This document shows, piece after piece, positions 1 through 8,680 of a stretch of 8,680 nucleotides of DNA. A program made the position numbers and the translations under genes. The stretch is taken from positions 1 to 8,680 of the forward strand of contig CANHPI010000095.1 of the NCBI GenBank assembly GCA_947462425.1, given 5' to 3'. The DNA comes from Bacteroidota bacterium (GTDB taxonomy: Bacteria; Bacteroidota; Bacteroidia; B-17B0; B-17BO). The notes beneath the pieces were generated by a model, which was not told where the DNA came from, did not search any database, and worked only from the letters and a program-made list of their open reading frames with translations. How positions within the stretch are numbered: position 1 is the first letter of the stretch; each line of letters starts with the position of its first letter.

Positions 1-149
1 ACAATTCATTTATATTTAAATCATAGTCATACAATTTTAATAATATTTCTACTGTAAACCTACCAATATAAAAATTTATTATTTCGCTTGTTTTTTCAGC
101 TTCAGTTATAGAATAATATTCCATTCCTCCAATTAACTTTTGCAGGTAC
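1..149. repeat. Terminal direct repeat, left copy (circular overlap)
   Basis: Bases 1-149 are identical to 8532-8680. The frame of the 509-aa protein passes through the join in phase, as expected if the contig comes from a circle of 8,531 bp, or from head-to-tail copies, and the assembler repeated the overlap. Confidence 0.95.
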
Positions 150-748
150 AATTTGGAATTTATTTTATTTTCTTCAATAGGCTTGCCAATAATTTTGGCC
201 TCCAACAATTCTAAAACTCTATTTTCTTTTTCAATTATTCTACTTTTAAAATTGAATGTAATTTTAGCAATACTTAAATTATCTGCATTGTTTATTGGAA
301 TATCAGTTAATAAAGTAAAGTAATTATTTATTGCAACATCTACAGAATTTGAAAGCTCCATAATTTTATTTTTAGTTTCTAACATACAAGAATACATTGC
401 ACCATAATAGTAATATTCATTTTCAAAATCATAGTTTAGTGAATTATTTTTATACCAAATTTTGTAATTATCTATACATTTAAATTCATCTATCAATATT
501 TTATAAACATTAGTAAAATTGCTTTGGTCAACTTCAATTTTAATAGAATTTACTTCGTCAATAAAATTTTGTTCTATTTCCCTTATTGTAGAAATGTTAC
601 AAAAACCATACAATAATAGTTTAGAATTTTCAGTAGCAGTTGCATTTATAATTTCTGCTTTTTGAACACCATGCTTAATAGTCAAATCTGCAAATTGTCT
701 GACAAAGTAAATCCATTCGCTAATTTTAGGCCTGCTTAATATATCCAT
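1..748 (-). CDS. N-terminal half of a 509-aa protein of unknown function (continues at 8531-7750)
   Basis: This is the first part of a gene cut by the window edge. The ATG is at 748-746. The frame stays open down to base 1, continues at 8531 on the circular molecule, and ends at the stop at 7752-7750, giving 509 residues. I translated it by hand and found no stop. The N-terminus reads MDILSRPKISEWIYFVRQF. This half looks mostly helical, with a Tyr-rich patch (NEYYYYGAMYS, about residues 110-120) and a Glu/Lys-rich segment around residue 190. I see no signal peptide, membrane segment or recognisable catalytic motif. The start lies 3 nt after the integrase stop, in the same frame, so it is probably translated from the int transcript. 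GC is clearly lower than in int, which points to cargo of separate origin. I do not recognise the family. It sits where satellites and integrative elements often carry accessory genes, but nothing in the sequence shows a defence role. Confidence 0.8.
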   Translation of the reverse strand, partial: MDILSRPKISEWIYFVRQFADLTIKHGVQKAEIINATATENSKLLLYGFCNISTIREIEQNFIDEVNSIKIEVDQSNFTNVYKILIDEFKCIDNYKIWYKNNSLNYDFENEYYYYGAMYSCMLETKNKIMELSNSVDVAINNYFTLLTDIPINNADNLSIAKITFNFKSRIIEKENRVLELLEAKIIGKPIEENKINSKLYLQKLIGGMEYYSITEAEKTSEIINFYIGRFTVEILLKLYDYDLNINEL

Positions 749-751
749 TGC

Positions 752-2020
752 TTATGCTTGCTTTCTAAGTATATCTGTTAATACATCGGTTGTAGTATGC
801 ACCTGCTTGGCCTCGAAGCTAGCTAGGTAATGCTTAGTGGTTTTTAGGCTGTTATGTCCTAATGCTTCGCTTATAAATTCTGTGCTTGCATTGGCGCGCT
901 TTAATACGGTTGCAAAACTATGGCGTGCATACTGTGTGGTAACAGTTGGTGTAATTTTTAACTCCTTACTAATAATGGCCAAATACTTGTTTACACTTTT
1001 TGTAAGTAGGTTGACTAGTTTCTTTTTATCCAATGTGCTTTGGCCTTGCTTGTAATGTGGAAATACAAATGCAGTAGGTAATACACTAGGCGTGCCTTGC
1101 CTCCTAATAATTTCCAATGCTTCATCTTTTAAAGATACTTGTATAGGGTTTTGTGTATTGCTTTTGCCTTGCGTTTTTTGGCGGTGGTATGTAATAAGGT
1201 TGCCATTAATTTGTTGCCATGTAAGGTTGCAAAGGTCATTTATATTCATTCCATTGCATAAAAACATAAATATCCAATAATCTTTGGCGCGCTGTAATTG
1301 CTTGCTATATTCTTTTTGCTTAATTGGTGTATTGGTACTAATTGCTGGTACTTCATAATTGTAAATAGATGCAATTTGTAGTACTGTTAATGCTTTCTTT
1401 TGATTGGTAACCAATGGTATTTTGTAACCGCTTTTGTTATTTGACCTATGGAATGGCTGTAAATTCAAAGGAATATTATTAAAATTGAATAGAGAGCGAA
1501 GGCATCTAACATAAATTGCAACTGTAGTAATACTTTTGCCATCTGCAAGCATTTTATGTTCAAATTGTTTTAGTTTGGTTGCTGTAATATCTGCAAACTT
1601 TAATTTAGGCCAATGTATAGCGAAGCAATTTTTTGCTGTACTGTAGCCAATTGAAGAGCCTATTTGGTCATTTGCATTCAAAAAATCAATATACCTATCA
1701 AATGCATTGCTTATACTATCAACCGCGCTATTTTCGCTTAAATATCCAGCCTCAAACAAGTTGAATGTAAAAATTGGTAAGGTGTCGATAACATCGTTTG
1801 CTTTCTTAATTCTTGCTTGCAGTTCCTTTAAAATATTATTTTCCTCATTGGTTCTACGTTTGGCATTCATGACATTTTCAAATGCAGCTGGAGTTAATTT
1901 GAATTTAGTACCATAATACTTTTGTTGGCGGTTGTGTGTAACTCGTATGCTTATTGCACAAGTTCCATCTTTTCTAGGGTGTTTATCGTCAATGGTTGCA
2001 GTTACTGTTATATTACTCAT
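752..2020 (-). CDS. int: Tyrosine recombinase / site-specific integrase
   Basis: This 422-aa protein has the size and layout of Bacteroidota tyrosine integrases. Residues 1-90 are a beta-rich arm-binding domain (SIRVTHNRQQKYYGTKFKL). About 100-200 form a SAM-like core-binding domain. About 210-415 form the catalytic domain. Visible catalytic residues are Lys282 (RQKT), Arg366 and His367 (YARHSFAT), His389 (LGHNS) and the nucleophile Tyr398 (TTKHYLA). The usual first Arg in the G-[LM]-R-x-x-[DE]-L motif is Asn259 (GMNINDL), and the His that often precedes Arg366 is also absent. CTnDOT IntDOT is known to lack the first Arg, so this need not inactivate the enzyme. The gene begins 31 bp from the nearer arm-type repeat of attP, as expected for an integrase beside its own site. 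The predicted reaction is insertion into, and excision from, a tRNA-Asn gene. The next gene starts 3 nt after the stop in the same frame. Confidence 0.95.
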   Translation of the reverse strand: MSNITVTATIDDKHPRKDGTCAISIRVTHNRQQKYYGTKFKLTPAAFENVMNAKRRTNEENNILKELQARIKKANDVIDTLPIFTFNLFEAGYLSENSAVDSISNAFDRYIDFLNANDQIGSSIGYSTAKNCFAIHWPKLKFADITATKLKQFEHKMLADGKSITTVAIYVRCLRSLFNFNNIPLNLQPFHRSNNKSGYKIPLVTNQKKALTVLQIASIYNYEVPAISTNTPIKQKEYSKQLQRAKDYWIFMFLCNGMNINDLCNLTWQQINGNLITYHRQKTQGKSNTQNPIQVSLKDEALEIIRRQGTPSVLPTAFVFPHYKQGQSTLDKKKLVNLLTKSVNKYLAIISKELKITPTVTTQYARHSFATVLKRANASTEFISEALGHNSLKTTKHYLASFEAKQVHTTTDVLTDILRKQA

Positions 2021-2050
2021 TTTACTACTTTTTTAAAGGTTATGCATTTT

Positions 2051-2071
2051 CTCCTATACAATTCCTATACA
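2051..2071 (+). repeat. Arm-type direct repeat 1 (int side)
   Basis: This 21-bp sequence is identical to 2294-2314. It contains two copies of the 9-mer TCCTATACA (2052-2060 and 2063-2071), offset by 11 bp, about one helical turn. Same-face paired boxes on both sides of the tRNA core fit binding by the integrase N-terminal domain. It also covers the predicted int transcription start. Confidence 0.75.
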
Positions 2072-2103
2072 AAAGTAATATAATAACACATAATAACAAT
2101 AAG
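2070..2103 (-). promoter_or_regulatory. Probable int promoter (TTG-N19-TACTTTTG)
   Basis: Read on the minus strand, TACTTTTG (2077-2070) matches the Bacteroidota -7 consensus TAnnTTTG. A TTG lies 19 bases upstream, at the -33 spacing. Transcription would start at about 2065, inside the arm-type repeat 2051-2071 and about 45 nt before the int ATG. Integrase bound to that arm could therefore block its own promoter. The match is read by eye and the start site is inferred. Confidence 0.55.
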
Positions 2104-2198
2104 TAACCAATAATCATTTATGCACAAAAGCCTTGATAAGTCTATATTTTACCAATATTTGTATTTAGTTGCTATTTGGTAGTTTATGGTAATAGGTA

Positions 2199-2243
2199 TG
2201 ACTGTTAATCAGAGGGTCTCTGGTTCAAGTCCAGAAGGGAGAG
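2199..2243 (+). tRNA. 3' fragment of tRNA-Asn (anticodon GTT), attP core
   Basis: The fragment carries an anticodon loop CTGTTAA with GTT at 2204-2206 and the 3' anticodon-stem strand TCAGA. Next come a 5-nt variable loop (2214-2218) and a perfect T arm: stem TCTGG, loop TTCAAGT, stem CCAGA (2219-2235). The 3' acceptor strand AGGGAGA (2236-2242) and discriminator G (2243) follow. No CCA is encoded. The 5' acceptor strand, D arm and most of the 5' anticodon stem are absent: upstream bases TATGA pair with TCAGA except at one position. This is therefore not a working tRNA gene but the identity block used to rebuild the host gene. Confidence 0.88.
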
Positions 2244-2250
2244 CAACAGT

Positions 2251-2288
2251 AATAAAGGGTTTCAAGTAATTGAAGCCCTTTATTTTTT
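2251..2288 (+). terminator. Rho-independent terminator after the tRNA-Asn fragment
   Basis: A 15-bp stem, AATAAAGGGTTTCAA (2251-2265) with TTGAAGCCCTTTATT (2270-2284), has a single T-G wobble and a GTAA loop. A T run extends to 2288. It lies 8 bp after the tRNA 3' end, so it would terminate the rebuilt tRNA transcript and insulate the element from it. Confidence 0.85.
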
Positions 2289-2293
2289 ACGGC

Positions 2294-2314
2294 CTCCTAT
2301 ACAATTCCTATACA
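2294..2314 (+). repeat. Arm-type direct repeat 2 (cargo side)
   Basis: This is the exact 21-bp copy of 2051-2071 in the same orientation, with the same pair of TCCTATACA boxes (2295-2303 and 2306-2314). It starts 50 bp after the end of the tRNA fragment, whereas arm 1 ends 127 bp before it. The unequal spacing is usual for attP arms. Confidence 0.75.
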
Positions 2315-2376
2315 TAGTCGATTTAAGGCATTAAAAAACTAATTATTTAATCACTATTATTTACATTTGAATAATT

Positions 2377-2901
2377 ATGAAAAAACTTTTATTCTTATTA
2401 GTAACTACTTTTTCCTTCATTCAAATTCATAGCCAAACTGAAACAAAAATTGATTTAGGCCATTATTCAAAAGTTTTAGATTTTCCCAATAACACGAAAA
2501 TAGAATTATTTAATGCAATCAATAAATGGCTTACATTAAATTATAATAGTGCTAAAGATGTAATACAACTCAATAATTTGGAAAATGGCGAAATTGTAGT
2601 AAAAGGAATAGTAAATATAGATGCACTTATTATGTTTGGTAAAGGGGTTCAAAAACCAATTCATCACACTTTATCAATTAAAATAAAGGAAAATAAAATT
2701 AAAGTTGATTTAGATTATAACGAAATTGTGTTTGACTACCTAAACTCTAATAACAATAAAATTGTAGCTGAATATTTAACGCATAAGGCAATAAGGCAAA
2801 AAGATAAAGATTGTTTAATTGTAAGTATGCAAAATCATTTTGACAGTACTATAAATTCAATAGCAAAATTTATCAATACATCTATTTCAAATGAATGGTA
2901 A
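2377..2901 (+). CDS. Secreted DUF4468-like protein
   Basis: This 174-aa protein begins with a clear Sec signal peptide: MKK, a hydrophobic stretch LLFLLVTTFSFIQI, then a probable cut near HSQ-TET (about residue 20). There is no lipobox Cys. The mature part has AINKWLTLNYNSAKDVIQ (about 47-64) followed by GEIVVKGIVN. This resembles the DUF4468 (TBP-like fold) proteins common in Bacteroidota, whose function is not established. It is the only gene on the plus strand. It converges on the 101-aa gene with 5 bp between stops, and in the integrated state it would lie directly downstream of the host tRNA-Asn. GC is low compared with the backbone, so it looks like cargo. A TACATTTG at 2362-2369 matches the -7 consensus but is only 7 nt from the ATG and lacks a convincing -33 box. 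The family call is from memory. Confidence 0.8.
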   Translation: MKKLLFLLVTTFSFIQIHSQTETKIDLGHYSKVLDFPNNTKIELFNAINKWLTLNYNSAKDVIQLNNLENGEIVVKGIVNIDALIMFGKGVQKPIHHTLSIKIKENKIKVDLDYNEIVFDYLNSNNNKIVAEYLTHKAIRQKDKDCLIVSMQNHFDSTINSIAKFINTSISNEW

Positions 2902-2906
2902 AATAT

Positions 2907-3212
2907 TTATTGAGGGTTATTAATTATTTTTTTTATTATTACATGTAAATCCTTAGAGTATAGTTTTGAAATAGCTTCATCTAACTTAGATAGGTGTTTA
3001 CTATTAAAATATTTTAATCTATTATAAGTTTTTTGAGGGTTTACAATTTTAAAAAACTCTATAGCTTCAGCATAATTTTTAACCTTAATTTTAAAACCGC
3101 TTAAACTTAGTATCTCATTAATGATTTCAATTTTAGATGTTTGTAAACTTTCATCTTTATAAATGAAGTAATCACTTTGCAATTCATTTAACTTATTCAA
3201 TATTTCATTCAT
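2907..3212 (-). CDS. Small protein of unknown function (101 aa)
   Basis: The frame opens at a TTG (3218), but an ATG two codons later (3212-3210, MNEILNKLNELQSDYFIYKD) is the more likely start. The protein is hydrophilic, Lys- and Ile-rich and probably all helical. It has no Cys, signal peptide or membrane segment, and I do not recognise a family. It lies 22 bp after the stop of the 102-aa gene, so it may share that transcript, and it converges on the DUF4468-like gene. Its low GC resembles the cargo genes more than the neighbours upstream. It could be a late addition at the end of the operon. Confidence 0.65.
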   Translation of the reverse strand: MNEILNKLNELQSDYFIYKDESLQTSKIEIINEILSLSGFKIKVKNYAEAIEFFKIVNPQKTYNRLKYFNSKHLSKLDEAISKLYSKDLHVIIKKIINNPQ

Positions 3213-3233
3213 ATTCAAAGTTAATAAATCATT

Positions 3234-3542
3234 CTAACTTTCTACTTCATTTGGTAATTGCTTTAATGCCATTACTGGTTGAATAACTATTTTATCATCT
3301 AGGTTCAAAGTAATTGTAACATCTCTATCCTTTTCCTCATTCAATTGTATTGTTTGCAGTTTAGGCACTAGGTAGGGCAATAGGTCGCTAATAAACTTTA
3401 GTTTATCCTTTGGCTCTAGTTGTTCAAAGTTGGTTTGTATAGTGCCTATATTGCTATCAATAAAGTTTTGCAAAGATTGCCTTGTAGTTAGTGTTATTTT
3501 GTTTGGTGTTCCTATGGTTCGGCCTCCAGTCTTATTTCTCAT
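3234..3542 (-). CDS. Small protein with GGR-GTPNK N-terminus, terminase-small-like
   Basis: This 102-aa protein begins MRNKTGGRTIGTPNKITLTT, a basic Gly-rich tail. A helical domain follows, RQSLQNFIDSNIGTIQTNFEQLEPKDKLKFISDLLPYLVPKLQ (about 21-63), and then an acidic and beta-prone C-terminus. Proteins with a GG-R-x-GTPNK start and a LEPKD-[RK]-L-x-F-x-x-x-LLPY-x-x-PK core are familiar from Bacteroidota prophages and mobile elements. They are often called hypothetical or small-terminase-like. The basic start probably contacts DNA. The gene follows the 85-aa gene by 26 bp, and that protein has a related type of N-terminus, so the two may work together. The packaging role is inferred from resemblance only. 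Confidence 0.75.
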   Translation of the reverse strand: MRNKTGGRTIGTPNKITLTTRQSLQNFIDSNIGTIQTNFEQLEPKDKLKFISDLLPYLVPKLQTIQLNEEKDRDVTITLNLDDKIVIQPVMALKQLPNEVES

Positions 3543-3568
3543 TTTCTATTTTGTTCTACTTTAGATAA

Positions 3569-3826
3569 CTAAATATAAATTTCTGCTTCTAATTCTGCTC
3601 CTACCTTTGGCATTCTTATTTCTTGCTTCTCTATTGGCCTACCAAAAGCGTGTTCAAATACGAATTTAATCAATGCCACTTCTCCAGTAGCTAGCAAGGC
3701 CTGCATAGCTTTGCAATTGCCACCATAAGTAGATTGTATTGCTTGCTTACAAATATTGCTTGTATGCTGTTCTAAGGCCTTTGGTTTGCGTCCTGCTCCA
3801 GGCCTTGCACCTCCTTTATTTGTCAT
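3569..3826 (-). CDS. Small GGARPGAGRK protein, phage terminase-small-like DNA-binding protein
   Basis: This 85-aa protein starts MTNKGGARPGAGRKPKALEQ. The RPGAGRKP signature is AT-hook-like and common at the N-terminus of phage small-terminase-type proteins and DUF5681-like proteins. The rest (about 23-70) is short and helical, with GEVALIKFVFEHAFGRPIEKQEI, where FGRP-x-x-K is also usual in this group. It is shorter than a typical full small terminase (about 130-180 aa), so it could be a minimal form or an unrelated DNA-binding protein. It has its own promoter candidate (3851-3879) and leads a two- or three-gene set with the 102-aa and 101-aa genes. No large terminase is present, so any packaging role would need a helper phage. 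Confidence 0.75.
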   Translation of the reverse strand: MTNKGGARPGAGRKPKALEQHTSNICKQAIQSTYGGNCKAMQALLATGEVALIKFVFEHAFGRPIEKQEIRMPKVGAELEAEIYI

Positions 3827-3849
3827 TGATTAAATATTGATTATTCAAT
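3825..3849. promoter_or_regulatory. Possible operator: repeated ATTGATTA with inverted repeat
   Basis: ATTGATTA occurs at 3825-3832 and 3836-3843, 11 bp apart. ATTGA (3836-3840) and TCAAT (3845-3849) form an inverted repeat with a 4-base gap. The group sits between the -7 box and the ATG of the 85-aa gene, where a repressor would act. The site is AT-rich and short, so chance is possible. Confidence 0.35.
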
Positions 3850-3850
3850 G

Positions 3851-3879
3851 CAAAGATACATTTTACTTTGTATTTCAAA
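3851..3879 (-). promoter_or_regulatory. Promoter candidate for the two terminase-small-like genes
   Basis: On the minus strand TATCTTTG (3858-3851) is a full match to TAnnTTTG. A TTTG (3879-3876) lies 17 bases upstream and overlaps the primase-like gene's stop. The expected start at about 3845 leaves a leader of about 20 nt before the ATG at 3826. This would let these genes be transcribed apart from the replication genes. Confidence 0.6.
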
Positions 3880-5350
3880 GTGAATTGCTAAGCATAGATT
3901 TTAATTTAGATAACCTTTTTAGGTAAGGAATCGCAATAGGTTTGTTGTAATATGTATTAATGGTTTCAAGATGACTGTTTACAAATTTCATTAAATCAAT
4001 TATTTTAGTACCACTGCATAAATTTATTTCACCTTTATTTTCAAGCTTTGCAGTTTCAAAGTATTCTGTTAATTCTAAAATTTGATTATGAAAGTTATTT
4101 TCAGGAATAGCAATTTTTAATTTTGTTTCATTTTCTAGTATTGGCGCTGGTAACTGTATCAAAGGTTTAATAATTGGCGTGTCTACTTTTATTTGACTAT
4201 TCTCTAAAATATAATCTGCTAAATCATGGCCATCAATTTTATTATTATCGTTGGCTAGTTGTTCTAGTATGTTTACACAAGTAAAACCAAATTCAATTGC
4301 TTTTTTATTCCATAGAATAAAAGCAGTATCATCAACTGAATTATCAGGAAATAAATAAACATCTCTATTTTTTAATACTTCTATTCTATTGGCTGTTAAA
4401 TAACCTAAACCTCCAGTAGCAAGCCATAAATATTCAGGGTAAAACATACTTGCAATAATTGCTGTTTTAGGAGCTTCTACAATGGCAATTGGTTTGTGCT
4501 TAAATTGATTCATTAGATGTTCACCAAATAAGCAATTGAATTTATTTACACTATTCTTATAGTTTAATAGCCACGTTGGCAATGCTTCGCCTTTTGCGGT
4601 GTATGCAAAGGATAGGTAAGTATGTATATTTCGCGCTTGTGGCTCTGTTTTAACACGTTTACCTATCTTACTATACTCTATTAAGGATATTGCCCTGCAA
4701 TGCCCTAAAATGCTTATAAATGGAAATGTAATGTATTTATCACAAGTACCTACAAAATACAAATGCAAAACTTTGTTTACTACATCTGTTCCAAATTTGG
4801 AGTATAAAATAGTTACCAATGTATTTGTATCATAGTTTTTTAATGTGTGCAACAATACTTCATCTATAATATTTACGATTGGCTGTTTTTGGAAATCAAC
4901 ATTGTTAGGCTTGCAAATTGGAGTATTACGAGTTATTAGCGTTATGTTGCCTTCGCTTTGAAAATGTTTAAAGTCCCATTCATTGTAGTTAATGTTTAAT
5001 TGGTTGGTTCTTTTGCCGTTGGTGTTTTTTATAAAAAATTCAGCCAAATAGATACCTGTACTCATTTGCTCAAAAATCGCTTTTTTGGGTATTATTTGTT
5101 CGTTTGCACCTTGCTTAATTAGCACTGCTTTTTCTGTTATTTCTCTTAGTTCGGTCGTAGGTACAAAATAGCACAGTATTGGCGGTGGTAAATGATAAGT
5201 ACATTTAACTGCATTATCACATTTGCCATATTCAGGCGGTAATGCTTCGCCAGTGGTGGCGTCTATGTATCGCTGGTAATGTTTGATTGCATGGCATTTA
5301 GGGCAATCTATTTTAGGTAGCTTATTTGAAGCTAGTTTATATTTATGCAT
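3875..5350 (-). CDS. Zinc-finger/Toprim primase-like protein (DUF6371-like)
   Basis: I chose the ATG at 5350-5348 (MHKYKLASNKLPKIDCPKC), giving 491 aa. The frame is open further, to a GTG at 5428, but those 26 codons run through the iteron-like repeats and give an unnatural IPIVLFIPYT sequence. Residues 16-53 form a zinc ribbon: CPKC, then C44, C50 and H53 around KHYQRYIDATTGEALP. This matches Bacteroidota proteins grouped as DUF6371 and resembles the CHC2 finger of DnaG. A Toprim-like domain spans about 285-375, with IVEAPKTA (Glu292), LATGG and FPDNS (Asp336), the last in place of the usual D-x-D. Known relatives sit in replication modules of phages and integrative elements, and I infer RNA-primer synthesis. 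It lies directly downstream of the candidate origin and of the RepA-like ATPase gene. Confidence 0.8.
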   Translation of the reverse strand: MHKYKLASNKLPKIDCPKCHAIKHYQRYIDATTGEALPPEYGKCDNAVKCTYHLPPPILCYFVPTTELREITEKAVLIKQGANEQIIPKKAIFEQMSTGIYLAEFFIKNTNGKRTNQLNINYNEWDFKHFQSEGNITLITRNTPICKPNNVDFQKQPIVNIIDEVLLHTLKNYDTNTLVTILYSKFGTDVVNKVLHLYFVGTCDKYITFPFISILGHCRAISLIEYSKIGKRVKTEPQARNIHTYLSFAYTAKGEALPTWLLNYKNSVNKFNCLFGEHLMNQFKHKPIAIVEAPKTAIIASMFYPEYLWLATGGLGYLTANRIEVLKNRDVYLFPDNSVDDTAFILWNKKAIEFGFTCVNILEQLANDNNKIDGHDLADYILENSQIKVDTPIIKPLIQLPAPILENETKLKIAIPENNFHNQILELTEYFETAKLENKGEINLCSGTKIIDLMKFVNSHLETINTYYNKPIAIPYLKRLSKLKSMLSNSL

Positions 5351-5361
5351 TTTGGAATGGT

Positions 5362-5382
5362 TTTGATTGGTATAAGGTATAA
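5362..5382 (+). repeat. Iteron-like 21-bp direct repeat, copy 1
   Basis: Identical to 5467-5487. The unit starts TTTGATT and contains two GGTATAA boxes 7 bp apart (5369-5375 and 5376-5382). Both copies are preceded by an ATTTATGCAT (5341-5350 and 5455-5464). Confidence 0.75.
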
Positions 5383-5407
5383 AAAGCACTATAGGTATAT
5401 TATACTT

Positions 5408-5438
5408 TATACCTAGTGCAATAAACACACTAGGTATA
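5408..5438. repeat. Perfect 11-bp inverted repeat in the candidate origin
   Basis: TATACCTAGTG (5408-5418) pairs with CACTAGGTATA (5428-5438) across a 9-base loop. A third, imperfect copy of the arm (GCACTATAGGTATA, 5386-5399) stands just to the left. The lack of a following T run on the minus strand argues against a terminator there. On the plus strand a T run does follow, so a terminator in that direction is possible, but no gene would use it. Confidence 0.6.
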
Positions 5439-5466
5439 TTTTTTCACTATACATATTTATGCATGG

Positions 5467-5487
5467 TTTGATTGGTATAAGGTATAA
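5467..5487 (+). repeat. Iteron-like 21-bp direct repeat, copy 2
   Basis: Exact copy of 5362-5382 in the same orientation, 105 bp away (about ten helical turns), with the same tandem GGTATAA boxes. Confidence 0.75.
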
Positions 5488-5494
5488 TGTAGCT

Positions 5495-5510
5495 TTTATA
5501 CTAGTATAAA
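5495..5510. repeat. 16-bp perfect palindrome TTTATACTAGTATAAA
   Basis: Perfect two-fold symmetry, followed at once by GTATAAAGG direct repeats (5504-5512 and 5512-5520). It is a likely dimer binding site or melting element within the candidate origin. Confidence 0.55.
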
Positions 5511-5540
5511 GGTATAAAGGGGCTATAGTGGAATTTTATT

Positions 5541-6587
5541 CTATACCAATGCATAATTTAAATTTTCTAGCTTTTGGATTAACCCACCATTCACTAAATC
5601 CCTACATTTAGCCTTTGCATTAGGCATACCTGTATTGGTATGATTCATTATAGCTTTGCATAAATCTGTATAGCTTAATTCAGTTGTTAGTTTAAATAAG
5701 TGAATTGCTAAACCTTTTAATTTATCTGCTTTGGTAGGCTTGTATTCACCTTCGTGCAATCCTGTGCAAACATGATAACCTAAATATTTATCAAATTCAA
5801 ATTTAAGCTGTGGCACTAAATGCGAACCACCATTACGCAAATCTTCGGCCACTAGGTAACAATATGTATCTGTTTTTTTCATTGCAACTCCAGCATCTTG
5901 CTTTCGCAATAGTTCACTACCTAAATGGCCTCTTACTTTTCCATCATTAGGATTCTTATGCACAACTGCTAATATTAGCGCTTTATATTCATCTGCAATT
6001 TTCATTAATAATTTTACCAATTCATTGCTTGCATCTGCATCATTTACATCATTTATTAAATCCGCTGCACCGTCTAATATTATCATGTGAATGCCTCCAT
6101 ATTTCGATATCAATTCAGGGCAAATTTTTTCTAATAGTTCCTGTACTTCTCGACGTTCCATTGATTTCACATTGTAACTATGGAAATTTTCAGGTAATTC
6201 TGTTTGGCCAATTCTCATTGCTATGTTTTTTAGATTGCGTAAATGCTTTGGCTTGGGTTGTTCTGTATCAATATGTAGGATAGCTTTGCCGTTACAATAT
6301 TCAACACTTATTTCAGGTGGTACGCTATCTAATTTATTTTGGCTTAATGATGCAACCATACAAGTATTTAGGAATGCAGATTTACCACTTTTTTGCACTC
6401 CAGATACAGTTACTATTTCGCCTGCACTACCTATACATTCATCTGCTAATTTAATAATTGGTGGCAAAGTAGGGTAATTACTTGATGATGTAATTCTAAA
6501 TGGTTCGTACTTATTAATAATACTATTCACTTTTGGCAATTGCCTTATAGCGTTTAATGCTTCTATTGCTTTCTTTTTATTTTCCAT
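5541..6587 (-). CDS. RepA-like hexameric replicative helicase / AAA (RecA-fold) ATPase
   Basis: This 348-aa protein has a Walker A motif GVQKSGKS (63-70). A Walker B strand follows, IHMIILDGA with Asp172, and an IDTEQPK strand (106-112) is in the place of the catalytic-acid motif. VVHKNPND (208-215) and RGHLGSELLRKQDAG (219-233) then match the sensor region of RepA/DnaB-type and AAA_25 ATPases. The last 80 residues look like a winged-helix tail (AIHLFKLTTELSYTDLCKAIM). Plasmid RepA proteins of this type (RSF1010 RepA) are hexameric helicases that open the origin. Here it probably loads at the repeat region just downstream and works with the primase-like protein. The gene starts 2 nt after the winged-helix gene, so they are co-transcribed. 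A non-helicase ATPase role is possible. Confidence 0.85.
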   Translation of the reverse strand: MENKKKAIEALNAIRQLPKVNSIINKYEPFRITSSSNYPTLPPIIKLADECIGSAGEIVTVSGVQKSGKSAFLNTCMVASLSQNKLDSVPPEISVEYCNGKAILHIDTEQPKPKHLRNLKNIAMRIGQTELPENFHSYNVKSMERREVQELLEKICPELISKYGGIHMIILDGAADLINDVNDADASNELVKLLMKIADEYKALILAVVHKNPNDGKVRGHLGSELLRKQDAGVAMKKTDTYCYLVAEDLRNGGSHLVPQLKFEFDKYLGYHVCTGLHEGEYKPTKADKLKGLAIHLFKLTTELSYTDLCKAIMNHTNTGMPNAKAKCRDLVNGGLIQKLENLNYALV

Positions 6588-6589
6588 AA

Positions 6590-6910
6590 CTAAAAAAGGT
6601 TTAATTGTGGATTGATAGGTGCTAAATTTGGGTTTGTTGTATAAACATTGGCGCGGTGCTTTGTAATACTACAAATGCGTTTACCTATGCAGTATATTTG
6701 CTTTACTTGCCTTAAATGTCTATTGTACCAACATATCGATTCTCTCATAATGCCACTATTCCTATCACATTCCTTCATAGTTTGCGGTTGGCTGTGGTAA
6801 GTATCAAATACTTTTTTTAGTTGTACTAATCTTGTATCTTTGTGCTGAAGGCTGTCTACCTTATTGGCGTTATTACTTGGAGGTGTAACGCCATTATTTT
6901 TGCTATACAT
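6590..6910 (-). CDS. Winged-helix-like small protein in the replication operon
   Basis: This 106-aa protein has a polar, disordered N-terminus (1-24). A probable winged-helix fold follows, LVQLKKVFDTYHSQPQTMKECDRNSGIMRESICWYNRHLRQVKQIYCIGK (about 28-77), with a wing-like ITKHRANVYTTNP (82-94). The pattern of a helix, a CDRNSG-IMRESICWYNRHL recognition helix and a hairpin is that of small DNA-binding proteins seen in the same place in Bacteroidota mobile elements. Four Cys (48, 60, 74, 80) are present, but their spacing is not a standard zinc site. It starts 2 nt after the HTH gene's stop and ends 2 nt before the RepA-like gene. It may help initiate replication or regulate the operon. The fold is judged by eye. 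Confidence 0.7.
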   Translation of the reverse strand: MYSKNNGVTPPSNNANKVDSLQHKDTRLVQLKKVFDTYHSQPQTMKECDRNSGIMRESICWYNRHLRQVKQIYCIGKRICSITKHRANVYTTNPNLAPINPQLNLF

Positions 6911-6912
6911 AA

Positions 6913-7248
6913 TTAATTAGATTTTGAGGTTAAATAATTATTTACAATTTGGTTGGCTTCGTCTGTGGTAATTCTTTTACCGCTCCTAATCCATTCTATA
7001 AGTTCTGCATTGCTAAAATAGAGGCGTTTATTCCGCTTCATGTGTGGCACTTTCCCAGCCGATACTAGGCCGTAAACGGTTTGTTTTGCTAAACCAATTT
7101 TATTGCAGGCCTGCTCCAATGTTAGGAGGTCATTTGCAACTGGTTGTGGCTGTGGTGGAATTTGTTTAGATAATGCATTGATAACACTATTGTTTATCAA
7201 TACTTCTAATTCATGCGGTGTAATCTGTGTAATCGTTACTGCTGTCAT
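6913..7248 (-). CDS. Helix-turn-helix protein, excisionase/MerR-like (HTH_17 type)
   Basis: This 111-aa protein has a helical N-terminus (ELEVLINNSVINALSKQI), a Pro/Gln linker (PPQPQP, 31-36) and a classic HTH_17 excisionase-type domain at 41-90: LLTLEQACNKIGLAKQTVYGLVSAGKVPHMKRNKRLYFSNAELIEWI, quoted here only as the span of its key motifs TLEQAC, TVYGLV, VPHMKR and LIEWI. This type is found beside replication genes in many Bacteroidota integrative elements, where it acts as an excision factor or operon activator. It leads the tight cluster with the winged-helix and RepA-like genes, so it could couple excision to replication. A TGTCGA-rich palindrome group (7299-7332) upstream is a candidate binding site. 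I saw no good -7/-33 pair there; the nearest is AATCTTTG, one base off. Confidence 0.85.
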   Translation of the reverse strand: MTAVTITQITPHELEVLINNSVINALSKQIPPQPQPVANDLLTLEQACNKIGLAKQTVYGLVSAGKVPHMKRNKRLYFSNAELIEWIRSGKRITTDEANQIVNNYLTSKSN

Positions 7249-7298
7249 TGTACTTTATTTTGTTTGTTGAGTACAAAGATTTGCATTAAATATTGGCG

Positions 7299-7332
7299 TG
7301 TCGAATATTCTGTCGACGACAAAAAATCGACA
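7299..7332. promoter_or_regulatory. TGTCGA palindrome cluster upstream of the HTH gene
   Basis: TGTCGA occurs at 7299-7304 and 7311-7316, and its complement TCGACA at 7327-7332. TGTCG-A-CGACA (7311-7321) is a perfect 11-bp palindrome. Such GC-rich symmetry stands out in AT-rich DNA and is 51-84 bp before the HTH start, so it is a good operator candidate for the HTH protein. Confidence 0.5.
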
Positions 7333-7372
7333 ATTTTTATTTAAGTAAATTGTTTTGTTTTACTTACTATAA
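7325..7372. repeat. 48-bp direct repeat, copy 1 (remnant of the 509-aa gene's 3' end)
   Basis: It matches 7734-7781 at 45 of 48 positions. Read on the minus strand it still encodes IVSKTKQFT and a stop, against IANKTKQFT in the real gene end. It therefore looks like a duplicated 3' tail of a related gene. It lies between the small membrane-protein gene and the HTH gene. Confidence 0.8.
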
Positions 7373-7407
7373 AACAACGTGAATTAATTTGTAGGTTGTT
7401 ATTTATT

Positions 7408-7656
7408 TTAGTTATTTATTTTTTCAAAATATTTATTTCTGTCTACTTTATAATATTTATTTAAATAATCATTCGGATCGTAAGAGCTACCAAATACGCC
7501 GTATTCTGCAGAACGTTTAAAACCCTCATGCCATCCAATATTATAGGCGTTATAAATATCCTCTTGAAAGTAAACAAAATGTAGTTGCGTATTAGCAAAA
7601 TAAGTTAATGCAATTGCAACTATTGCAATAAGTAATGATTTAGGCATCTTGTTCAT
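7408..7656 (-). CDS. Small membrane-anchored protein of unknown function (82 aa)
   Basis: The frame is open from 7713, but I place the start at the ATG at 7656-7654 (MNKMPKSLLIAIVAIALTYF). The 19 codons before it would put a Cys/Tyr-rich tail ahead of the membrane helix, and a TACATTTG -7 box (7690-7683) lies inside them. Residues about 7-22 form one hydrophobic helix, a signal anchor or uncleaved signal peptide. A polar, Tyr-rich C-terminal part follows (IGWHEGFKRSAEYGVFGSSYDPNDYLNKYYKVDRNKYF), probably outside the membrane. No family is recognised. It lies between the 48-bp direct repeats and is very AT-rich, so it looks like an inserted cargo gene. The stop overlaps a tandem 13-bp duplication (7398-7423). 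Confidence 0.6.
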   Translation of the reverse strand: MNKMPKSLLIAIVAIALTYFANTQLHFVYFQEDIYNAYNIGWHEGFKRSAEYGVFGSSYDPNDYLNKYYKVDRNKYFEKINN

Positions 7657-7682
7657 GATTAGCTGTTTTGTTTTGTAATATA

Positions 7683-7690
7683 CAAATGTA
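7683..7690 (-). promoter_or_regulatory. -7 box candidate for the small membrane-protein gene
   Basis: TACATTTG on the minus strand is a full match to TAnnTTTG and would give a start near 7678, about 20 nt before the ATG at 7656. No clear TTG is found 17-23 bp upstream, so the call rests on the -7 box alone. Confidence 0.35.
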
Positions 7691-7733
7691 TAAAGGATTT
7701 TGCAATAATTCACTTTTGTATCTAGATAGACAT

Positions 7734-7781
7734 AATCGACAATTTTTATTTAGGTAAATTGTTTTGTTTTATTTGCTATAA
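7734..7781. repeat. 48-bp direct repeat, copy 2 (3' end of the 509-aa gene)
   Basis: It differs from 7325-7372 at three positions and covers the last ten codons and stop of the 509-aa gene plus 16 bp beyond. With copy 1 it brackets the small membrane-protein gene. Confidence 0.8.
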
Positions 7782-8680
7782 GTTCATTTACTAATTTTCT
7801 TTTTTCTATACATTCAATAATATTAGTTTCTAGAATACTACTAATATCTAATATTTCATTTTTCGTAGGGGAGGTAATGTGTTTTCTTATTTCCTTCCCA
7901 TAAGGTAGGCCATATTTTTTACATAGTTGAAAAGCAGTGGAATCGGCATTCCCTATGTAGGTTTCTTTTTCTCCATCAATTAACAGCCAAAATAATTTTC
8001 CAGTTTTTTTAAAGTTTAATTTACCTTTTACTGTTTTATCCTTGCTTCTATTAGTCGGAATATTCAAAATTTCATCTTCATATTCCTTTAGCCTTAAATA
8101 TTGTTGATAATCAATTTGACCCCAATCGTATGATTTACATTGAATTTCATTCCATCCTAATTGCTTCATTTCTACACTTGTTTTATTAATGCCATGCATA
8201 GCATCAAATATACCTTTCCATCCAATTCTAATTTCACATTCTTTTGAAACACTTGCACAATCTTTATTCCATAATTCAATAGCTTTATCTATTCCAATTT
8301 GATTGATTTTTAATCTGACTTTTATTTTTTTATCACTCAATTGTTTTAAAGAATCAACTTTCTTTATAAAATTTGTCGCTTCATTTGATGAAAGGTGCAT
8401 GAGGTCGGGCAATATGTAATTTGTTTTGTTGTCAATTAAATACAATAAAGGTATTTCTTGAATTTGCGCACTCTCATTAAATTTATTGACTACAACCTGC
8501 TTTAATTCTTTGTTGCATCTAGTACCATTCAACAATTCATTTATATTTAAATCATAGTCATACAATTTTAATAATATTTCTACTGTAAACCTACCAATAT
8601 AAAAATTTATTATTTCGCTTGTTTTTTCAGCTTCAGTTATAGAATAATATTCCATTCCTCCAATTAACTTTTGCAGGTAC
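7750..8680 (-). CDS. C-terminal part of the same 509-aa protein of unknown function
   Basis: This is the continuation of the frame that starts at 748. Bases 8532-8680 repeat 1-149, so the unique part is 8531-7750. A shorter frame could be called from the internal ATG at 8655-8653 (MEYYSITEAEK), giving 301 aa. That Met is residue 209 of the longer frame and has 208 in-frame codons before it, so I treat it as internal. The C-terminal half contains GWKGIFDAMHGINKT and LGWNEIQCKSYDWGQIDYQQY (about residues 345-395), then a Lys-rich stretch. After that comes a compact segment, GKLFWLLIDGEKETYIGNAD, that looks like a small beta-rich domain. I could assign no family. The last ten codons and the stop lie in a 48-bp sequence found again at 7325-7372. 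The DNA is very AT-rich, like the small gene downstream. Confidence 0.8.
   Translation of the reverse strand, partial: YLQKLIGGMEYYSITEAEKTSEIINFYIGRFTVEILLKLYDYDLNINELLNGTRCNKELKQVVVNKFNESAQIQEIPLLYLIDNKTNYILPDLMHLSSNEATNFIKKVDSLKQLSDKKIKVRLKINQIGIDKAIELWNKDCASVSKECEIRIGWKGIFDAMHGINKTSVEMKQLGWNEIQCKSYDWGQIDYQQYLRLKEYEDEILNIPTNRSKDKTVKGKLNFKKTGKLFWLLIDGEKETYIGNADSTAFQLCKKYGLPYGKEIRKHITSPTKNEILDISSILETNIIECIEKRKLVNELIANKTKQFT
8532..8680. repeat. Terminal direct repeat, right copy (circular overlap)
   Basis: This is the exact copy of bases 1-149. It should be removed before counting length or genes, because it is the same DNA seen twice. Confidence 0.95.

Follow-up and report, generated by a model that had tools for sequence, protein, structure and literature searches.

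A small circular element from Bacteroidota that resembles phage satellites

We showed that contig CANHPI010000095.1 of a Bacteroidota bacterium (assembly GCA_947462425.1), whose whole stretch of 8,680 nucleotides was analysed and is called the window below, represents a circular molecule of 8,531 bp, or a tandem or concatemeric form of it, since bases 1-149 recur exactly at 8532-8680. This 149-nt terminal direct repeat rules out a chromosomal island with flanking DNA. Numerous Bacteroidota genomes carry similar small elements with the look of phage parasites. We consider it to be a minimal, excisable Bacteroidota phage satellite, similar to phage-inducible chromosomal islands (PICIs) and phage-inducible chromosomal minimalist islands (PICMIs), with a probability of roughly 60%. 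In favour of this reading are the circular form, an attachment site (attP), a sibling inserted at tRNA-Val, the synteny of homologues of one small protein with the large terminase subunit (TerL), the packaging genes of a relative (locus L064), proteins of the L064 TerS cluster in further relatives, the likeness to the gene plan of PICMIs, and the finding of no relaxase in the window.

If these elements form a satellite family, a major gut, soil and marine phylum would have satellites of its own, with carriers among cultured strains, such as those of Chryseobacterium lacus or Polaribacter behind loci L091, L138 and L153. Moreover, conjugative and phage-borne elements would share one chassis, and the sibling pair would tie a change of target site to one recombination point in the integrase gene (int). 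No Bacteroidota satellite family is described in the titles and opening lines of abstracts of the literature searched on satellites and PICIs; many Firmicutes and Gammaproteobacteria are named as hosts of PICIs (PMC10803314). Some relatives of the window may already sit in the list compiled by the authors of the PICMI study, since only 67 of the 135 elements found with the PICMI gene model in complete genomes lie in Vibrionaceae, according to the same paper; this speaks against novelty.

The circular molecule, its genes and its attachment site

Because the molecule is circular, the two open reading frames (ORFs) at the ends of the window form a single minus-strand gene, read from 748 to 1 and then, over the circle junction, from 8531 to 7750. 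It encodes a 509-aa protein (N-terminal part at 1..748, beginning 3 nt past the end of int; C-terminal part at 7750..8531). The minus strand carries, in this order, genes for the integrase, the 509-aa protein, a 101-aa protein, an HTH_17 protein, a 106-aa protein, an AAA_25 helicase, a DUF6371 primase-like protein, and proteins of 85, 102 and 103 aa; the core ORFs are open. The initial annotation had described an element running in one direction in 8.5 kb. This holds from the integrase to the 103-aa ORF, but the DUF4468 gene (2377-2901) is the sole named gene on the opposite strand, and the molecule is the 8,531-bp circle.

The genes named in that annotation were matched in Pfam: the integrase (PF00589, 4.6e-17), the Xis-like HTH_17 protein (PF12728, 9.7e-12), the helicase (2.8e-6), the primase-like protein (DUF6371 1.3e-39, Zn_ribbon_16 1.6e-14, DUF6965 4.3e-14) and the DUF4468 cargo protein (6.8e-11); the two small basic proteins were also confirmed. 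A "winged-helix" call for 6590-6910 found no family support. As had been claimed, no relaxase family was detected (Pfam, E≤1, 11 window proteins), and the window contains no recognizable phage structural or lysis genes, including capsid genes, the 509-aa protein having been scanned with Pfam and PADLOC only. Comparison of the whole-element DNA with phages and plasmids led nowhere.

The attP core (2199..2246, plus strand) consists of the 3' half of a tRNA-Asn(GTT) gene plus two bases. Its 48 nt are identical to positions 423-470 of contig C63 of G001, the nearest genome among those compared, where they overlap an intact tRNA-Asn gene. This identity upholds the earlier proposal of a tRNA-Asn site, with the qualification that the window holds the 3' half only and no complete tRNA was found in it by ARAGORN. 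The search with the element matched nothing else on contig C63, so this G001 site appears to be empty. Two identical 21-nt repeats bracket the core on its two sides (2051..2071 and 2294..2314, plus strand), as would be expected of integrase arm sites, and are putative P and P' arms, respectively.

The tyrosine integrase (422 aa, 752..2020, minus strand) was compared with that of a mosaic sibling of the element in G001 (L006), which is cut by a contig end. Identity, read from the alignment in 100-column steps, is 65-89% over attP and integrase residues ~1-175, and 98-100% over the rest of int (DNA ~99% identical) and ~290 residues of the 509-aa protein. It falls to 43-80% where the 509-aa protein ends, across the 101-aa region and into the start of the HTH gene. 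Two steps at 88-90% come next, and from there, beginning with the 106-aa ORF, identity is 96-100% up to the contig end, which lies within the 102-aa ORF. The sibling core is a tRNA-Val half, and at tRNA-Val the sibling is joined to chromosome-like genes; a further contig end bears a tRNA-Val (named by eye) and, after it, what resembles an element end. The target has changed jointly with the flanking repeat and the N-terminal integrase part, the catalytic part being unchanged; judging from these alignments, this is a natural target swap inside int.

Next to the tRNA-Val half of the sibling (L006:3350-3960) are another tRNA-Val-like copy, whose 5' half is odd, and a GIY-YIG-like ORF of 82 aa (both recognized by eye), together with a stretch resembling the 21-nt repeat of the window. 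This region seems to be what remains of a third, tandemly placed element.

The replication module comprises the AAA_25 (RecA-type) helicase (348 aa, 5541..6587, minus strand) and the DUF6371 primase-like protein (3875..5428, minus strand), the likely start of which is the nearly invariant Met27 at 5350. Between them lies a candidate replication origin (5351..5540) with six GGTATAA/TTATACC words. Six of the seven such words of the circle fall at 5369-5517, and none of 500 second-order Markov simulations placed six words within one 206-bp stretch (the word had been picked by eye before the simulation). This iteron cluster is origin-like, as the initial annotation had suggested, and could serve as the replication origin.

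Recurrence and insertion sites of the backbone

The primase belongs to a large family (2,607 of 7,996 scored proteins at E≤0.001). Loci for comparison were taken from a primase-alignment scan (the best 80 of 154 viral and the best 80 of 581 genome loci, plus the sibling; 161 in all). They were chosen by primase and capped in number, so the counts given below are not frequencies, and membership of IMG/VR is a prediction and not proof of packaging. A primase ORF of the main cluster was present in 159 of the 161 loci. In 72 of these 159 (14 viral, 57 genomic and the sibling) an integrase and a helicase lie upstream on the same strand; the ordered gene set, whose possible recurrence had been raised at the outset, is therefore found again in genomes and viral contigs. 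The stretch from integrase to primase is co-directional in 71 of the 72 backbone loci (ORFs shorter than 150 aa ignored), and the HTH cluster occurs in 63. The helicase slot is filled by D5/DUF5906 (32 loci), AAA_25 (25) or DUF3987 (15) types, as assigned by a Pfam scan of a single member of each cluster and by the window proteins. A single-sequence helicase scan of viral contigs was a dead end.

Insertion sites could be recognized in part of the 72 loci. Direct repeats of 46-49 nt occur at tRNA-Arg or tRNA-Met in eight (L091, L093, L095, L107, L111, L114, L130 and L155), repeats of 17-22 nt near tRNA-Leu in three (L127, L138 and L153), and repeats of 16-18 nt that correspond to the mnmE 3' end in five (L099, L124, L126, L135 and L145; mnmE codons were read by eye, and MnmE was Pfam-confirmed in L139). 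A control with the right side reversed gave 9-15 nt. The 16 spans bounded by tRNA or mnmE repeats measure 6.5-11.8 kb, except those of L095 (14.6 kb) and L135 (14.9 kb). Other repeats lack a tRNA or mnmE (e.g. L108, 56 nt; L116, 120 nt; L094, 31 nt; L129, 30 nt), the remainder barely exceeding the control, and 33 of the 72 loci have no repeat of at least 14 nt. Contigs with terminal repeats were found for 8 of 170 loci.

Twenty-five repeat-bounded or circular elements hold 102 ORFs outside the named families. Sixty-four of these were scanned, together with one protein of family f33 and three window proteins, against Pfam and PHROGs, and 24 integrase-adjacent ("position-2") ORFs against Pfam; 14 lay outside the Pfam scan (one of 295 aa, the others ≤179 aa). 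No relaxase is among the first 25 of the 47 Pfam families matched, though weak single matches could lie among the others. G001 likewise has no PF03432 relaxase. Terminase small subunit, capsid and protease each matched one member, all from L064. In addition, phrog_4002, noted in connection with the DUF4468-type cargo, matched four of the 68 proteins scanned against PHROGs.

The slot after the primase and the mode of spread

The 85-aa protein (3569..3826, minus strand) is encoded directly after the primase. Outside such elements its homologues were found in one of 396 genomes (G108, two copies), the sole other match being the sibling, and a set of 196 genomes gave the same outcome. Both G108 copies, 44 and 42% identical to the window protein, are prophage genes located immediately upstream of TerL. 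For one of these TerL proteins (L216) the match is to Flavobacterium phage records annotated as "PBSX family terminase large subunit" (29% over 87%, E 2e-40). In the second locus (L217) the gene overlaps that of TerL, and portal-, protease- and capsid-like genes come after; its TerL matches that of phage contig L044 at 3.5e-171, the latter corresponding to phrog_979 (3.3e-26). A search of TerL proteins against the PDB was a dead end. On this evidence the 85-aa protein is likely a small terminase subunit (TerS), and the element probably carries a phage DNA-packaging gene.

A relative with packaging genes on the same backbone is L064:1-8791, an IMG/VR circle of 8.67 kb with a 123-nt terminal repeat. 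Its gene order is integrase, position-2, HTH, AAA helicase, primase, a 111-aa ORF, prohead protease (phrog_80, 1.9e-32), major head protein (phrog_10, 3.5e-32), TerS (phrog_51, 4.9e-28) and two small ORFs, with no remaining ORF that could be TerL or portal. L064 is an unusually small capsid-bearing element. L054 has the same genes in a permuted contig. The profile of family f16, the cluster with the L064 TerS (the only member checked against PHROGs), marks L017, L032 and L064 among the 72 loci, and also L054 and L157. The terS plan of the initial annotation gains from the synteny of the 85-aa homologues and from the L064 TerS; the small-terminase role is likely, not proven. In L017 (6362-11405) and L123 (12356-15427) a tape-measure protein is followed by genes resembling small terminase subunits, in L017 through cluster f16 and in both through family f39, whose members we presume by eye to be TerS-like.

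The next gene encodes a basic 102-aa protein of the GTPN/DUF5681 type (3234..3542, minus strand). Of its clustered relatives, the one in phage contig L044 overlaps a TerL, and that of L114 shares 45% identity with a protein of Leptospira phage LE4 which overlaps the TerL start. Among 25 loci of its relatives (from 298 genomes of the order, with ~1.5 kb of flank each) a TerL-like ORF occurs in only three (adjacent in L240, one small ORF away in L234, and in L245), and a primase ORF in five, one being the sibling. The 102-aa protein was rejected as a proven TerS on account of these three of 25 loci and of phage matches lying by an integrase. The f33 protein was likewise rejected (phrog_24579 at E 0.014; nothing below E 0.3 in the PDB); its AlphaFold2 model shows a helix-turn-helix, helices and two short strands (pLDDT 69.5, pTM 0.46). 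A phage search with the 102-aa protein of L017 was a dead end. Family f8 (27 loci; e.g. L139:12099-12686), a 195-aa protein common after the primase, has no Pfam or PHROG match and is a candidate packaging or regulatory gene.

Several observations weigh against a satellite. Both contigs of G108 break off shortly before the TerS-like gene, leaving room for another TerS further up. The 85-aa protein, which is short, had no match among 50,697 phage records, and a profile of TerS-position proteins scores it only 5.8 bits (and the 102-aa protein 1.2 bits). The phage matches of the window's own 102-aa protein (Bacteroides BF1-TP2, BKO1-TP3 and BS-TP4) adjoin an integrase and not a terminase, and its AlphaFold2 model is weak (pLDDT 64.7, pTM 0.30). 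The f16 TerS cluster is present in only three of the 72 backbone loci. G001 (91% complete) has no PF05065 capsid and no TerL of the L217 type. Finally, the backbone is common to phages (L032, with portal and TerL, and L041, with TerL) and to Tn4555, which is moved by conjugation.

This last point leads to the main rival, namely a stripped integrative mobilizable element of the Tn4555/NBU type, that has no relaxase of its own and depends on a conjugative element acting in trans on an oriT. The published gene list of Tn4555 reads int, X (TnpC), Xis, AAA ATPase and DUF6371 (PMC13183296), and the same order followed by a mobilization protein is found in CP103138 (L176), a 10,057-bp Bacteroides fragilis circle that was deposited as a plasmid but appears to be a Tn4555-type element in its circular form. 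Window proteins match it (primase 1.5e-24, integrase 8.9e-5, HTH 3.9e-5), and the gene order is equal up to the primase, so the sharp contrast with NBU/Tn4555 drawn initially is not supported: the difference lies in the mobilization gene after the primase. A table in PMC5704250 shows MobP, the Tn4555 relaxase, for NBU1 and Tn4555, and "None" in rows such as SGI1. However, a single-sequence search, which may miss distant relaxases, recovered homologues of the CP103138 mobilization protein from just two loci, L055 (within the 72) and L023 (outside them). Furthermore, in 40 of the 72 loci the five genes following the primase include a member of six other recurrent gene families, and in the window the slot is taken by a TerS-type gene. 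We regard this explanation as improbable.

Equally doubtful is a cryptic integrative plasmid, capable of excision and replication but with no dedicated transfer, that spreads by chance transduction or transformation. The integration and replication set, the circular form and the small size would suit it, as would the 32 of 72 loci with none of the six families after the primase, but it leaves the TerS-position gene and the capsid- and TerS-bearing relative unexplained. A decayed prophage retaining int, replication genes and a small terminase subunit is the least probable explanation: same-backbone loci do carry portal, TerL or both (L032, L041) or a tape-measure protein (L017, L123), but at least 14 repeat-bounded elements share this core in 6.5-9.4 kb, 71 of the 72 backbones are co-directional and the core ORFs of the window are open, and random decay would not yield a shared core and co-direction.

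Under the satellite reading, the integrase would recombine attP with the 3' half of the tRNA-Asn gene (both sequences are observed), and the HTH_17 and 509-aa proteins may drive excision, by analogy with the AlpA and int-overlapping proteins of PICMIs and with Tn4555. The helicase and primase would replicate the circle, starting at the iterons that separate their genes. The TerS-like protein could then redirect the terminase and capsid of a helper phage to the element DNA, as its synteny suggests, and the packaged form may be one genome or a concatemer.

More tentatively, there may be a widespread Bacteroidota chassis (integrase, fast-evolving integrase-adjacent protein, HTH_17, interchangeable helicase and DUF6371 primase) in which the slot after the primase might set the mode of spread. 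A mobilization gene would give a conjugative hitchhiker (Tn4555), a TerS-type gene a satellite (the window), and TerS with protease and capsid a capsid-bearing 8.7-kb satellite (L064). Exchange of the slot might switch between conjugation and phage transfer, and recombination inside int, at the border of the DNA-binding and catalytic parts, might switch the tRNA.

PICIs, including Staphylococcus aureus pathogenicity islands (SaPIs), carry int, a Xis-type regulator, a primase-helicase with iterons and terS, without lytic genes. The window shares the tyrosine integrase with an att site, the Xis-type regulator, the replication module with nearby iterons (a candidate origin), and the lack of structural and lysis genes; its TerS-like gene, both prophage homologues of which lie beside TerL, is a candidate terS. 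In PICIs int and the regulatory and replication modules are divergent, unlike the layout of the window. Capsid-forming PICIs (cfPICIs) find a parallel in L064, which bears protease, major capsid protein and TerS in only 8.67 kb with no ORF left for TerL or portal, whereas the window has no capsid gene.

The tested PICMI plan, known from Vibrionaceae, consists of int, an int-overlapping gene (IOLG), AlpA and primase (PMC10803314). That paper gives 13 families for the IOLG/ICG slot, PF12728 or PF05930 for AlpA, and a DUF3987- or DUF5906-type primase. The window shares the very small size, int, a variable gene touching or beside it, an AlpA-type regulator and the lack of capsid genes; the primase domains DUF3987 and DUF5906 recur in the helicase slot of its relatives. 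PICMIs integrate at fis, whereas the attP of the window is tRNA-Asn and its relatives use tRNA genes or mnmE. Against the PICMI rule of int, AlpA and a DUF3987/DUF5906 primase, the window has int and PF12728, but an AAA_25 helicase with a separate DUF6371 primase; small TerS-like and DUF5681-like proteins and the Bacteroidota host also set it apart. Because the fis site, this domain rule and the divergent PICI layout are not found, the window is PICI/PICMI-like and a member of neither group, although these two come closest among the systems with experimental tests. The 10K genomic island of Riemerella anatipestifer (~10 kb, tRNA-Arg, 53-bp repeats, excision and circularization, no plaques reported; PMC6764341) is, as described, similar in size, tRNA site and circular form. 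Charybdis elements (~4.6 kb, archaeal host, no replication gene; PMC12324425) are different.

The integrase-adjacent protein and other features

The slot occupied by the 509-aa gene is filled throughout the family: in 66 of the 72 loci the interval between int and the HTH or helicase gene contains one or two ORFs of ≥150 aa, and 44 of 68 position-2 ORFs overlap the previous ORF or start ≤25 nt from it. When these 68 proteins were compared together with the 509-aa and DUF4468 proteins of the window, 46 of the 70 formed one single-linkage group through shared N- or C-terminal modules (E<1e-3), which the 509-aa protein joins through its sibling only. Plain cargo was thus ruled out for the latter, a member of a modular family in the same slot. 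Besides DUF4468, two strong Pfam matches were obtained in the position-2 set (ORF6N and DUF6617). Known defence genes were also rejected, as PADLOC on 69 proteins matched only PDC-S05 and PbeC, in one protein each. By eye, some position-2 C-termini look RteC-like.

In PICMI115 the int-overlapping gene, whose slot is filled by 13 families, is required for excision (PMC10803314), and optimal excision of Tn4555 needs a further protein beyond the integrase and the recombination directionality factor (PMC5704250). Because both serve excision, we predict that the integrase-adjacent protein is a putative excision cofactor.

The other genes of this region are those of the HTH_17 protein of the Xis/AlpA type (6913..7248, minus strand), of the 106-aa protein (p106; 6590..6910, minus strand), whose fold has no assignment and whose cluster occurs in 32 of the 72 backbone loci, and of the 101-aa protein without clear family (7408..7713, minus strand). 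The last sits between two 48-nt direct repeats (7325-7372 and 7734-7781, 94% identical), as if the gene had arrived with a duplication. At the other end of the gene row, a 103-aa ORF (2907..3218, minus strand) has no clear family. The cargo gene (2377..2901, plus strand) encodes the DUF4468 protein, whose N-terminus resembles a signal peptide by eye; a protein of this type recurs as end cargo in L091:12154-12711 and L126:12829-13452.

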